Shown: one piece after another, positions 2,204-53,432 of the stretch
How positions within the stretch are numbered: position 1 is the stretch's first letter
Layout: each line of letters starts with the position of its first letter
Assembly: GCA_016873275.1 (NCBI GenBank)
Contig: VGXO01000016.1
Coordinates: 1 to 55,365 of the forward strand
Length of the DNA: 55,365 bases
DNA from: Phycisphaerae bacterium
Lineage (GTDB): Bacteria > Planctomycetota > Phycisphaerae > Phycisphaerales > SM1A02
Direction of reading: 5' to 3'
Position numbers and translations under genes: made by a program
The notes under the pieces: model-generated
Told to the model about the DNA's origin: nothing
The model's database searches: none
The model's input: only the letters and a program-made list of their open reading frames with translations

Positions 2204-2620
2204 CCTCGTGGTCGTGATGTTCCGCATCCGAGCTCGAGAGCGCGACCGCTCGTTCGATGAAGGTCGTCGCGACCCGATCCAAGCGGGTCGCATGCGACGA
2301 CCCCGGGAGCATGCCACGGCGGCGGTTCGGTGGCGGTCCCGCGTCGCGAGTTCGCGCGACATCGTCATGGCACCCTCGTGCTCGGAAGCCGCCTCGGCTG
2401 GGTTCGACGCCGGAACGACCCGCTGCACGCCGGTTCCGGGACCCTCACGGGAGTCGGGAGCGGGGGGCGCCGGATCGCCGGGTCGAAGGCACGCCGCACC
2501 TCGAAGCCGGACGCGCCCCCGGGGGGTGGACGTCTTCATCCACGACGAGCCGACGAGCGAACCACCGCGTGGTCGCCGCGACGCCCGACCCGGCTACGCT
2601 CATCGCTTCGGCTGCATCGC
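2204..2620. other. Divergent intergenic region upstream of lipA
   Basis: This region lies between the minus-strand sorting-signal gene and lipA. The minus-strand frame is open to 2539, but its translation is Arg/Pro-rich and unlike a protein. A possible -10 hexamer for lipA lies at 2595. I see no RNA gene. Confidence 0.5.
2595..2600 (+). promoter_or_regulatory. Candidate -10 element of lipA
   Basis: TACGCT, the same hexamer seen 6 nt before the thioesterase start at 7435. Transcription would begin near 2607, just before the 11-bp repeat. No clear -35. Confidence 0.35.
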
Positions 2621-2653
2621 CATGACCACGCCATGACCACGCCATGACCACGC
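2621..2653 (+). repeat. 11-bp repeat forming coupled MTTP-stop mini-ORFs before lipA
   Basis: Three copies of CATGACCACGC at 2621, 2632 and 2643. The 11-bp period puts an ATG in each of the three frames (2622, 2633, 2644). The first two open four-codon frames reading Met-Thr-Thr-Pro-stop, and each stop overlaps the next ATG as ATGA (2633-2636 and 2644-2647). The third ATG is the lipA start. No Shine-Dalgarno precedes any of them. Confidence 0.85.
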
Positions 2654-3738
2654 CCTCCCCCGAACCCGCCCCGAACTCGCCGCTCGCGAGGACGCTCGCG
2701 CGGCATCCTCGGCCCTTGGGCGGCGACACTGCCCGAAGCGTCGGCCCGGCGGCGGTCAGCCTCACCGGCTTCGTCCTCAACAACCTCGAGAAGGAGGCGC
2801 AGACCCTCCGGATCGGTCGGAAGCCCGACTGGCTCCGCGCCCGGATGCCCGGCGGCGACGGCTACCGGCGGATGAAGTCGATCATCGACGAGCACCGCCT
2901 CCACACCGTCTGCGAGGAGGCAAGCTGCCCCAACATCGGCGAGTGCTGGGCCCGCGGCGCCGCGACGATCATGATCCTCGGCGACACCTGCACGCGGAGC
3001 TGCGGCTTCTGCAACGTGAAGACCGGGCGGCCCGCCGAGCTCGACCTCGACGAGCCGCGCCGCGTCGCCGCGAGCCTCAAGCTCGTGGGGCTCCGGCACG
3101 TCGTGATCACCTCGGTCAACCGCGACGAGCTGCCCGACGGCGGTGCCGCGATCTGGGCGGAGACGATCGAGCGGGTGCACGAGGCGTGCCCGGAGATGTC
3201 GGTCGAGGTCCTCGTCGGGGACTTCTGCGGCGACGAGCGGGCGCTCCAGAAGGTGATCGACGCGCGACCGGAGATCCTCGCCCACAACATGGAGACGGTG
3301 CGGCGCATGCATCCGGCGGTGCGTCCGCAGGCACGCTACGAGCGGAGCCTCGCGGTGCTCGCCCAGATCAAGGCGGGCGGGCTCGTCGCCAAGACCGGGA
3401 TCATGGTGGGGATCGGAGAGCACGAGGAGGAGGTGCACCAGCTCCTCGACGACGTGCGCCGCACGAGCGACGCGGACGTGATGACGATCGGGCAGTACCT
3501 CCAGCCGACGCGGAACCACCTGCCGATCTCCCGCTGGGTGCACCCCGAGGAGTTCGAGCGATACCGCATCGCCGGGCTCGCGAAGGGCTTCAAGGTCGTC
3601 GAGAGCGGTCCGCTGGTGCGGTCGAGCTACCACGCCGACGACCAGGCGGCGCGGCTCGCGGGACCCCGCGGGGACGCCGCGCGGGCGATGCAGTCGATGA
3701 TCGACGCGGCGTCGCGGGCGAGGACCGAGGGTCGCTGA
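2644..3738 (+). CDS. lipA: Lipoyl synthase
   Basis: This is the radical-SAM enzyme that inserts two sulfurs into protein-bound octanoate to form lipoyl groups on 2-oxoacid dehydrogenases and the glycine cleavage system. The 364-residue product has the auxiliary-cluster cysteines in the LipA spacing C-x4-C-x5-C (C90, C95, C101), the SAM-cluster motif C116-x3-C120-x2-C123, and the C-terminal RSSYHAD motif that carries the auxiliary-cluster serine. It is somewhat longer than usual (about 290-330) because of a Pro-rich N-terminal extension. The start at 2644 is the last of three overlapping ATGs made by an 11-bp repeat. LipB and the target complexes are not nearby. Function is very secure; the start is less so. 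Confidence 0.97.
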   Translation: MTTPSPEPAPNSPLARTLARHPRPLGGDTARSVGPAAVSLTGFVLNNLEKEAQTLRIGRKPDWLRARMPGGDGYRRMKSIIDEHRLHTVCEEASCPNIGECWARGAATIMILGDTCTRSCGFCNVKTGRPAELDLDEPRRVAASLKLVGLRHVVITSVNRDELPDGGAAIWAETIERVHEACPEMSVEVLVGDFCGDERALQKVIDARPEILAHNMETVRRMHPAVRPQARYERSLAVLAQIKAGGLVAKTGIMVGIGEHEEEVHQLLDDVRRTSDADVMTIGQYLQPTRNHLPISRWVHPEEFERYRIAGLAKGFKVVESGPLVRSSYHADDQAARLAGPRGDAARAMQSMIDAASRARTEGR

Positions 3739-37849: not shown

Positions 37850-40800
37850 TCAGCCGCGGATGCGCCAGGCGTTCGAGACGCCGAGCGTCGGAACCTCGAT
37901 CGCGGTGACGCTCAGCCCGAAGGTCTGCGGGTCGAAGCCCATGTACCAGACGCCGAAGGTGCCTCCGCTGACCTGCTGCCAGAGGAGGTCGGGAACGCCG
38001 TCGCTGTCCAGATCGGAGAGACCGACGATCGCCCAGGAGGGGCTTCCCGCCGTCGCGACGAGACCGATGTTCTGGATCGCCAGGCCGTCGGCGCCGCCGA
38101 GGTACCAGACGCCCATCTGTCCGCTCGTCTGATTGCGCCAGAGGAGGTCCGATCGACCATCGTCGTTGAAGTCGGCGCTGCCCTCGCAGAGCCAGCCCGC
38201 GGGCGGCTGGGTCGGCATCGAGACGAAGGAGGCGGGCTGCCCGTTCGCGCCGAAGTACCACACGCCGGTCTGACCGGTCGAGAGGTTCTGCCACACGAGG
38301 TCGTCGATCCCGTCGAGGTCGAAGTCTCCGCTTGCGGAGACTCGCCAAGCGAGCGAGACGGTGGGATTCACCACGTAGGCGGAGGTGAAGTCCGGTCCGT
38401 CGAGCAGCCAGTTTCCGACGACGCCGCTGACCTCGCTGCGGAAGCAGATGCTGGGTCGACCGGGCGCGCCCTGACCCCAGAAGCCGAGCGCCCTCGCCCG
38501 CCACTCGGCGCCGGCGGTCTGACCCGTCGAGAGGTAGCCAGCCGCCTCGCCGTCGAGCAGGAGCTGCACGCCGGTCTCTCCGGTCGAGGGGTTCTGCACC
38601 ACGAGGTCGTTCCAGCCGTCGCCGTTGAAGTCGGGCTGACCGGTCTGGCAGAACTCCGAGGGGATGTTGAACTGCAGCTGGTCGAACTGGTAGGTGCCGC
38701 CCGGGGGATCGAACGACACGGCGATCTGGCTGACGCCGTTGAACCACTCCACGCCCACGAACTGGTTGTCCGAGGGATTGGTCGGGTCGTTCGCCGTCAC
38801 GGGCAGGATGGCGATCGCCTGCACGCCGTTGGGGTCGGTGACGGTGACCGTCGCGGAGGAGGCTGGACCGCCGGTGAACACGATGCCGACCGCCATCGGC
38901 GGCTGACCGCCTGCCGCGATCGCCGCGTCGATGGTGAAGCCGACCTGACCGCCCACGGACTGCAGCACGAAGCCACCGGGCGCGACGCCGACGCCGGGCA
39001 CGATCTCGCCGGGGGCATAGGTCACGCCGTCGACCGCGGTGCCGCCGCTGGGATAGAACTCGACCTCGAAGCAGGAGATGCCCTGACCGAAGAAGGGGCT
39101 GTCGGTCAGGCTCAAGTAAGGCTGGTCCGGGATCACGAACACCGCCGCCTGTGGCGAGGACTGCGTGATGGTGAAGTCGAGTCCGCCGACGGTGATGGTG
39201 CCAGTCCTCGACTCGGCGCCGGTGTTCTCCGCGACCGCGTACTCGACGAGGCTGCTCCCGGTCCCGGAGGGAGTCGTCACGGTGATCCACGGATCGGTGG
39301 TGCTCGCCGACCAGGGGCACGTCGGTCCGTTGGTCGTGACGAGGAACGAGCCCGTGTCTGCGGCGGGGGCGTAGCTCGCCGAGGTCGGACTGATCTCGAC
39401 GACGGCGCAGGCAGCGCCGTCCTGCGTGACGGTGAAGGTGAGACCCTCGACGGTGATGGTGCCGGTCCTGGCGATGGTGACGGTGTTCTCGGCGACGGTG
39501 TAGCCGACGGTGCCGTTGCCGGTGCCGGAGGCGGTGGTGAGGGTGATCCAGGCATCGCCCGTCGTGGCGCTCCATGCGCAGGTCGCGCCGTTGGTGGTCA
39601 CGGCGAAGGAGCCGGGACCGCCGGCGGCGCTCGCCGACGCGGAGGTCGGGTTGATCGCGGTGACCGCGCAGGGGACGCCGCCCTGGGTGACGGTGAAGGC
39701 GAGTCCGCCGACGGAGATGGTGCCGGTGCGGGCGTCGGTGGAAGTGTTCGCGGCGATCGCATAGGCAACGTTGCCGTCGCCGGTGCCCGAGCCGGTCGTC
39801 AGCGTGATCCAGGCATCGCCCGTCGTGGCGCTCCAGCTGCACTCCGCGCCATTGGTGGTCACGGCGAAGGAGCCGGGACCGCCGGCGGCGCTCGCCGACG
39901 CGGAAGTCGGACTGATGCCGGTGACGGCGCAGGCAGCGCCGTCCTGCGTGACGGTGAAGGCGAGACCCTCGACGGTGATGGTGCCGGTCCTGGCGATGGT
40001 GACGGTGTTCTCGGCGACGGTGTAGCCGACGGTGCCGTTGCCGGTGCCGGAGGCGGTGGTGAGGGTGATCCAGGCATCGCCCGTCGTGGCGCTCCATGCG
40101 CAGGTCGCGCCGTTGGTGGTCACGGCGAAGGAGCCGGGACCGCCGGCGGCGCTCGCCGACGCGGAGGTCGGGTTGATCGCGGTGACCGCGCAGGGGACGC
40201 CGCTCTGGGTGACGGTGAAGGCGAAGCCGCCGACGGAGATGGTGCCGGTGCGGGCGTCGGTGGAAGTGTTCTCGGCGATCGCATAGGCAACGTTGCCGTC
40301 GCCGGTGCCGGAGCCGGTCGTCAGCGTGATCCAGGCATCGCTCGTCGAGGCGCTCCACGTGCAGGTCGCGTTGCTGACGGTCACGGCGAAGGAGCCGGGA
40401 CCGCCGGCGGCGCTCGCCGACGCGGAGGTCGGGTTGATGCCGGTGATGGCGCACTCGCCGCTCGCGGCCTGTGCGATCGAGATCGAGAGACCACCGCCGG
40501 TGCCGCTCACCGAGATCGAGCCCGTTCGAGCCGCGCCGGTGTTCGCGGCGACCGAGTACTGGACGGTGCCGTTGCCGAAGCCGGAGCCGCTGGTGATGGA
40601 GATCCAGGGATCAGTCGTGGTCGCGGTCCAGCCGCATCCGGCGCCGTTCAGGGTCACGGCGGAGGAGCCGGTGCCGCCGGCGGCGTCGTAGTTCGCCGAG
40701 GCAGGTTCGATCGCGGTCACCTTGGAGGCGAGCGAGAACTGGATGTCGTCGACCTGGTTGGGAATGGTCGGAGAGAAGGGGTTGAACGCGAGCCGGACCT

Positions 40801-52314: not shown

Positions 52315-53307
52315 TCAGGGAAGCCGTCCGCGATCAGGCCAAGGGCTCCACTCCAGCGCGCGAGCGATCTCGAGGATCGACGCCTCGCGCCCGCGCTGAA
52401 TCGCCCGACGCGAACGCATGACCGCGGGAAGACCGCGCAGCGCCTCGAGCTTCGCGGAGATCATCGTCCTCCCGCGACCCGTCGCGAGCCCGTGAAGGAG
52501 GCAGGTCAACTGCCCGGCGAGGAAGGGAACGAGCAGCGGAACCGCGAGGAGACCCGGCATGTTTCTCGCGTAGCACCAGACCATGTTGCGGTGCCCAAGA
52601 CGGGTGGCGAGATCGCTTCTTGCGCCTCCCGACGACGCGCCGCCGGCATGCTGGCATCGCGCGGACGCGACGAGGATGCACCGACCACCGGCGAGCCGCT
52701 GGCGGAATCCCAGGTCGAGGTCCTCGTAGTAGCAGAAGAAGGACTCCTCGAAGCCGCCGACCGACTCGAACGCCTCGCGACGATGCACCGCGGCGGCGCC
52801 GCAGGCTGAGAAGACCTCGACGTCGCGATCCACCGGTCGGACCCTCGCCCGATGCCCTCGACGCCACGCGACCCCGCTCGCGTGGTAGGCGTCGCCGACG
52901 CCGTCGAAGCGAGGCGGGTCGCCGGGGAGGATCTGCACGGACGCGAGGCTCGTCGCGCTTGGGTGGCGCTCGGCGGCCGACGTCATCTCGGCGATCCAGT
53001 CCGGCTCGAGCTCGACGTCCGGGTTGACGAGTCCCACGAGGGGCGCGGTGGTGAGCCGAACCGCGAGGTTGTTCGCGGTCGCGAAGCCGACGTTCCGCGG
53101 CAGCGCGACGACCTCGACGTCCCGACGACCGTCCAGCAGCCCGAGCGTGCCGTCGTCGCTGGCGTTGTCGACCACCACCACCTCGCGGGGAGGGACGGTC
53201 TGCCGATCGATCGAGCGGAGGCATGCCTCGATCTCGCGGCGCGACCGGTGGGTCACGATGCAGACCGAGAGGCGAGCGTCCCTGGAGTCTGGTTTCGATC
53301 GGGTCAT
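52315..53307 (-). CDS. GT2-family glycosyltransferase
   Basis: The 330-residue product has the GT-A start LSVCIVTHRSRREIEACLRS, VVVVDNASDDGT, the donor motif VGLVNPDVELEPDW and FFCYYEDLDLGFR, where ED is the acidic pair near the catalytic site; the C-terminal part has a hydrophobic segment (LLAVPLLVPFLAGQLTCLL). It is related to but clearly different from the converging GT2 protein. ATG 53307 is taken as the start; the frame continues one codon to a TTG. Together with the WbpL-like gene beyond the repeat it forms a small glycan group. Confidence 0.9.
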   Translation of the reverse strand: MTRSKPDSRDARLSVCIVTHRSRREIEACLRSIDRQTVPPREVVVVDNASDDGTLGLLDGRRDVEVVALPRNVGFATANNLAVRLTTAPLVGLVNPDVELEPDWIAEMTSAAERHPSATSLASVQILPGDPPRFDGVGDAYHASGVAWRRGHRARVRPVDRDVEVFSACGAAAVHRREAFESVGGFEESFFCYYEDLDLGFRQRLAGGRCILVASARCQHAGGASSGGARSDLATRLGHRNMVWCYARNMPGLLAVPLLVPFLAGQLTCLLHGLATGRGRTMISAKLEALRGLPAVMRSRRAIQRGREASILEIARALEWSPWPDRGRLP

Positions 53308-53389
53308 CAAGATCGCCGCTCGTCTGATCGAAGGGCAAGATCCCGCTCGACGCGGTTCATCATCCGGCGACGGCGGTCCATCGTCGAGT

Positions 53390-53432
53390 CATGGTCGAGT
53401 CATGGTCGAGTCATGGTCGAGTCATGGTCGAG
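53390..53432. repeat. 11-bp tandem repeat between divergent glycan genes
   Basis: Four copies of CATGGTCGAGT (53390, 53401, 53412, 53423; the last one ends in G). It has the same period as the array at lipA and also carries CATG, but its ATGs do not form a start/stop cascade into the gene at 53461. Confidence 0.9.

Follow-up and report, generated by a model that had tools for sequence, protein, structure and literature searches.

We analyzed 55,365 nucleotides of a Phycisphaerae bacterium (contig VGXO01000016.1 of assembly GCA_016873275.1; hereafter, the window). The gene for lipoyl synthase (lipA) begins inside an exact tandem repeat, and a second repeat of the same design lies on the other strand, upstream of a glycosyltransferase-like gene. 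The features discussed here are as follows (G001 and G002 are genomes from the same genus):

2595-2600, + strand: TACGCT, which lies within the block CCCGGCTACGCT (2589-2600) and is a putative -10 element for lipA
2618-2654, + strand: tandem array across the start codon of lipA, with 3.4 exact copies of the 11-bp unit CGCCATGACCA
2622-2636, + strand: mini-ORF 1, Met-Thr-Thr-Pro-stop; its ATG is 21 nt past TACGCT, the position of the lipA ATG in relatives (22 and 24 nt)
2633-2647, + strand: mini-ORF 2, Met-Thr-Thr-Pro-stop, with a 4-nt ATGA overlap with mini-ORF 1 and another with lipA
2644-3738, + strand: lipA, lipoyl synthase, 364 amino acids, above the cut-off of TIGR00510; start conserved in G001 and G002
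52315-53307, - strand: glycosyltransferase-like gene; NCBIfam glycosyltransferase models score below their cut-offs; G002 has a 53% identical relative
53307-53363, - strand: short ORF MMNRVERDLALRSDERRS-stop, with overlaps at both ends: ATGA joins its start codon to the stop of the ORF from 53392, and TGATG joins its stop codon to the start codon of the next gene
53383-53432, - strand: second 11-bp array, unit ATGACTCGACC, 4.5 exact copies, with the same architecture as at lipA

Tandem Repeats Finder reported the array at lipA with period 11, 3.4 copies, and 100% matches, and our own script found the same exact run. The array holds three ATGs (at 2622, 2633, and 2644). The original prediction, which was made from the sequence alone, described three exact 11-bp units that put ATGs in all three frames, and both the units and their coordinates were right. 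It also described two MTTP-stop mini-ORFs, each with a stop that overlaps the next ATG as ATGA. The peptides and the overlaps (2633-2636 and 2644-2647) are as described, and these are the 4-nt stop/start overlaps of termination-reinitiation pairs. LipA itself does begin with MTTP: the N-terminus from the ATG at 2644 is MTTPSPEPA..., which agrees with the N-termini in the two same-genus genomes, and the protein scores 357.4 bits against TIGR00510 lipA (cut-off 310.25). By direct reading of the sequence ahead of the ATGs at 2622, 2633, and 2644, we found no Shine-Dalgarno-like tetramer, as had been claimed. The leader RNA of lipA folds no better than its shuffles (z = -0.07), which rules out a structured leader. 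The position of the array, at a coding start, is one of those (promoter, leader, or coding start) where tandem arrays lie in phase-variable loci.

Much of this pattern follows from the unit. Because the 11-bp unit contains ATGA, the frames are of the form M-x-x-x-stop, they overlap as ATGA, and the ATGs occupy three frames. The next ATG is 3n+2 bases on and its TG-A completes the stop, so any 11-bp repeat that holds ATGA would chain in this way. Since the features of the chain are arithmetical given the unit, they amount to one coincidence and not several. Similarly, LipA begins with MTTP because the same unit was copied. The remarkable point is that a repeat lies across a start codon, not the chain of mini-ORFs as such. 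(Tandem Repeats Finder also reported an 11-bp repeat at 2658-2681. We left it out of the expansion: it lies within lipA codons, and G002 has a similar stretch.)

Relatives and the putative promoter

We searched for lipA in this genome and 60 relatives and found matches in 58 of the 61 genomes. In both of the same-genus genomes, lipA has a single ATG and no repeat (LipA is 91% and 88% identical). All three genomes carry CCCGGCTAC[CG]CT upstream of lipA, and the block CCCGGCTACGCT is common to G001 and G002, with one base different. The congeners' lipA ATG lies 22 nt (G002) or 24 nt (G001) after the TACCCT of their shared CCCGGCTACCCT block. These comparisons are based on lining up the CCCGGCTAC block by eye and measuring the gaps; an automatic alignment of the three leaders did not align this block. 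Within 2541-2700, TACGCT is the only TANNNT, and it ends 21 nt before the ATG at 2622 and 43 nt before the lipA ATG at 2644. In other words, the first ATG keeps the spacing of the congeners, and the lipA ATG is 22 bp, or two units, farther from the putative promoter.

We fetched 27 lipA loci from the 55 further matching genomes, and none of them has ATGA-N7-ATGA between -150 and +60 of the lipA match. A conserved regulatory upstream ORF would be kept in relatives, and this array is absent from 2/2 congeners and 27/27 further loci. This excludes a conserved device, though a species-specific one is still a candidate. The original prediction was to be refuted by relatives without the repeat, and all of the relatives that we compared are without it. 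The comparison indicates that the repeat at lipA is young. (Because we have a single genome of this species, the age of the repeat and its neutrality are judged from differences between species.)

TACGCT may be part of the lipA promoter. A generic scan of 2450-2700 found no sigma-70 consensus promoter, including at TACGCT. Because the gap from TANNNT to the start is longer in this genus, the predicted leader would measure about 15 nt up to the first ATG and about 37 nt up to that of lipA. At leaderless genes, the expected distance from the end of the -10 element to the start codon is about 6-8 nt, and the gaps of 21 and 43 nt do not fit.

To describe the kinds of starts in this genome, we used a home-made hexamer caller on the window and 19 other readable stretches, which gave 221 genes. 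Among 212 genes, TANNNT ends 6 nt before a candidate start in 14 cases, 7 nt before it in 7, and 8 nt before it in 4; for internal start-like codons, the counts are 1, 2, and 0. This peak is a signature of leaderless starts in the sampled genome. Also, SD-like tetramers precede 85 of 271 ATGs near gene starts and 120 of 810 internal ATGs. Given both the TANNNT peak and the enrichment of SD-like tetramers, both kinds of starts exist in this genome. For the one planctomycete analyzed in PMC5397173, fewer genes with SD sequences and leaderless or S1-type signals are reported. At lipA in 27 more distant relatives, TANNNT is found 6-13 nt upstream of the candidate start in 24 cases, and in the next four 8-nt ranges in 1, 1, 2, and 3 cases. 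By this measure, lipA in the wider family is mostly of the short-leader kind, with a longer gap in this genus.

Other repeats in the genome and the phylum

The pattern ATGA-N7-ATGA-N7-ATGA forms just two arrays in the 3.23-Mb genome, and both are in the window (the reversed-pattern control gave 0). With only two matching arrays, a genome-wide family of lipA-like cascades was rejected. In the second array, the ATGs at 53425, 53414, and 53403 open three overlapping MTRP-stop mini-ORFs, and the ATG at 53392 opens MTRRWTAVAG-stop. Stop/start overlaps continue unbroken from the array, through the MMNRVERDLALRSDERRS ORF, to the ATG of the glycosyltransferase-like gene (53307). The relative of this gene in G002 (53% identical) lacks the array and has a TAGCAT-6nt-GTG start instead. 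There is no TANNNT upstream of the second cascade on the minus strand.

Across 294 genomes from the phylum, three-ATGA arrays of period 10, 11, 13, and 14 matched in 70, 63, 41, and 89 genomes, respectively. For periods 10, 11, and 13, we counted the exact arrays by hand, requiring two identical full units. This gave 11 arrays of period 11 (in 9 genomes), 19 of period 13, and 21 of period 10, of which 14 belong to one dispersed ATGAAC[GA]C family and 7 are others. Because period 11 has no more exact arrays than period 10 or period 13, the self-coupling period is not preferred, and we rejected selection for such periods. The period-11 pattern is found at 93 places, versus 26 for a backwards control (a hand count, and ATGA and its reverse are perhaps not equally common).

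Do these arrays lie at gene starts? From the 93 listed places, we chose 20 foreign period-11 regions by eye. A frame of at least 80 amino acids begins at the last ATG in 0 of the 9 foreign exact arrays and in 3 of the 11 inexact arrays that we fetched (L180, L182, and L183); these frames are mechanical, not curated genes. Among the 11 exact period-11 arrays, the one at lipA is alone in that its last ATG opens a long frame. As none of the 9 foreign exact arrays does so, we rejected the idea that the same cascade recurs at gene starts elsewhere in the phylum.

Two other kinds of ATGA repeats are worth recording. 10-bp repeats of the type ATGAAC[GA]C.. are dispersed in several unrelated genomes of the phylum (G045, G099, G234, and G325). 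In the genome studied here, a long open frame has a 13-bp ATGA array (L211; G000:C52:8650-8679, - strand) near its 5' end.

We then considered tandem arrays of any sequence, with at least 2.9 exact copies and at least 24 bp, leaving out a masked stretch. There were 20 exact arrays in 394,061 sampled bases of this genome, versus 5 in 390,090 bases of the two congeners (P = 0.004); the sampled stretches are mostly contig starts and not random draws. The congeners' arrays were split as 4 in 218,159 bases and 1 in 171,931 bases, and a complete genome from the same family had 0 in 120,000 bases. If neighboring arrays are merged by hand, then there are 15 loci versus 5 (P = 0.041), or 12 versus 5 (P = 0.053) if the window is excluded. 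Five third-order Markov copies of the sample contained only five period-4 rows, one per copy. We take these rows to be the masked all-N stretch, so that chance gives no arrays. By a hand count in the window and L151-L169, 12 of the 20 arrays have a called gene start no more than 150 nt away. Since the units differ from place to place, the genome has a tendency to expand repeats, rather than one spreading element. The many minisatellites close to gene starts in this genome make a better subject for study than the lipA array by itself.

Several individual repeats illustrate the variety. In L159 (17578-17630), a 14-bp array of 3.8 copies lies directly before a called gene start; its unit has no ATG and is unrelated in sequence. 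Arrays are clustered at L152 3520-3904. Within the window, an imperfect 15-bp array (2134-2204, - strand, 4.7 copies, 80% matches) directly adjoins the start codon (near 2132) of an ORF on the minus strand; this ORF matched no NCBIfam family and may have the look of a PEP-CTERM protein. A 9-bp array of 4.9 copies lies between two gene ends (1162-1205), so there are three arrays within 1.5 kb. Finally, a 261-bp tandem repeat (39377-40453, 4.1 copies, 83%) lies in a large minus-strand gene and probably encodes protein repeats.

How the array might be translated and might have arisen

We think that the array at lipA is probably a young minisatellite: slippage would have expanded a repeat across the start of lipA, and the expansion would have been tolerated, rather than being a conserved control device. 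We base this on the anatomy of the array, its absence from relatives, a promoter-like block whose spacing to the first ATG is kept, and a genome that is rich in repeats. We see no sign of selection for the array as a regulator. From here we infer the promoter and transcript start, the entry of ribosomes, restarting, and tolerance.

Specifically, slippage or unequal copying would have added two 11-bp units across the lipA start codon in this species. The lipA ATG would thus have moved 22 bp farther from the promoter, with two ATGs between. As the 11-bp unit contains ATGA, each extra ATG would open a frame of four codons, with its stop at the next ATG. On a transcript made from TACGCT, the AUG at 2622 would come first. 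With no SD sequence, the 5'-proximal AUG would be the natural point of entry, so ribosomes would most likely enter at or near it. A ribosome might then make MTTP, stop on the UGA, find itself at the overlapping AUG, and start again; two such rounds would bring it to lipA. Starting directly at the second or third AUG is an equally possible route to lipA, as is a mix of routes. The AUGA overlaps would keep the insertion nearly harmless, and so it may persist in a housekeeping gene.

The original prediction also held that ribosomes could terminate and restart in series. This part stands as plausible: there is no SD sequence and no leader structure, and 4-nt overlaps are the commonest close spacing in this genome (11 of 68 close same-strand pairs can start exactly at -4, which is the largest single class; the next has 6 pairs, at +35). 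In E. coli, removing the SD sequence reduced restarting in 4 of 5 gene pairs (PMC6728339), which argues for some loss at each step.

Several observations count against a tolerated expansion. Both of the ATGA cascades in this genome, alike in design, fall within the 55 kb of the window, and both give peptides that end in Pro-stop, which would not be favored by a purely random process. Among the exact period-11 arrays, only that at lipA has a last ATG that opens a long frame. This species does use some SD-like signals (85/271 versus 120/810, as above), and the effect of SD removal in E. coli and the negative promoter scan at TACGCT also count here.

Alternatively, the mini-ORFs might never be read, and the array might be an inert spacer. 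Translation would then begin at 2644 and nowhere else: the transcript might start downstream of 2633, or ribosomes might recognize just the third ATG. Leaderless-type starts are common in this genome, and a 5'-terminal ATG at 2644 would suffice. However, the sole nearby TANNNT is 21 nt from 2622 and as much as 43 nt from 2644, so the transcript would have to start inside the array without a visible promoter. Also, the contexts of the three ATGs are nearly identical. We consider this explanation unlikely.

It seems quite unlikely that the array is a species-specific tunable or phase-variable device, in which the number of units sets the number of restarts and slippage varies this number from cell to cell. 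Exact repeats can slip, the number of mini-ORFs would change with the number of units and leave the LipA protein untouched, and the genome has a similarly built cascade ahead of another gene. There is a precedent in surface-protein genes of Moraxella, where tandem repeats between the promoter and the start vary expression (PMC4679880). However, the congeners lack the array, and period 11 is not favored over 10 or 13 among ATGA arrays in the phylum. Adding a unit always leaves lipA in frame, so there would be no on/off switch, and LipA is a housekeeping enzyme. We found no positive support for the tunable or phase-variable control that was originally proposed.

We doubt, too, that the minisatellite works as a ribosome relay, a chain of self-coupled mini-cistrons in which every unit imposes one more restart and the unit count thereby sets how much is made from lipA. 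In such a scheme, the MTRP-stop units would do the same for the glycosyltransferase-like gene, and slippage would change the output without ever breaking the frame of the protein.

The two remaining alternatives are both very improbable. The units could be phased operator sites for a transcription regulator, as 11 bp is about one helical turn and the array would begin about 11 bp past the predicted transcript start, where a bound protein could block RNA polymerase, but the 23-base double unit is found nowhere else in the genome, the units of the two arrays differ, and the congeners lack the array. An assembly artifact or chance could be suspected in one draft genome of 136 contigs, but the whole array of 37 bp is below the usual read length, the genome has many arrays of other units, and the Markov copies give none.

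Comparison with known systems

If restarting is efficient, then the lipA array offers a naturally occurring test of termination-reinitiation, in series and with no Shine-Dalgarno sequences. It would also suggest why some repeat expansions at start codons are survivable, as a 3n+2 unit with ATGA terminates and restarts by itself. If restarting is inefficient, then lipA in this species bears a cost that is absent in its congeners. Our literature search, which left most subscription journals outside, found no paper on a repeat-built cascade of ATGA mini-ORFs.

The array shares its 4-nt ATGA stop/start overlap with the gene pairs that are coupled by termination and reinitiation (PMC6728339, PMC10666635). 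In PMC10666635, this overlap is by far the most common distance and is needed for coupling. Those pairs are ordinary genes, whereas the frames at lipA have four codons, are serial, are built from a repeat, and lack SD sequences.

In E. coli, AUGs near the 5' end of a transcript, ahead of the start of the gene, can bind ribosomes and affect the downstream gene (PMC4965119). In those mRNAs, the gene has an SD sequence and the AUG is 5'-terminal, while at lipA the first AUG is predicted to be about 15 nt in and there is no SD sequence. In the axe-txe system, a very short upstream frame (a minigene) changes gene expression, and both its distance and its frame matter (PMC8708949). The axe-txe minigene has two codons and is present once, in a plasmid toxin-antitoxin operon; the frames at lipA have four codons, are repeated, and overlap.

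Another parallel is the heptamer TAACTGA, which forms direct repeats before start codons at 169 places in marine Beggiatoaceae (PMC4679880). Two Cyanothece strains differ by indels in steps of one unit, and regulation of translation was suggested there but is unproven. Like the lipA array, these are short direct repeats close upstream of start codons, mostly in intergenic regions. Unlike them, the lipA repeat has an 11-bp unit (CGCCATGACCA) rather than the 7-bp TAACTGA. The heptamer is one fixed sequence, whereas the units in the genome studied here vary in both sequence and length, and the unit at lipA contains the start codon itself.
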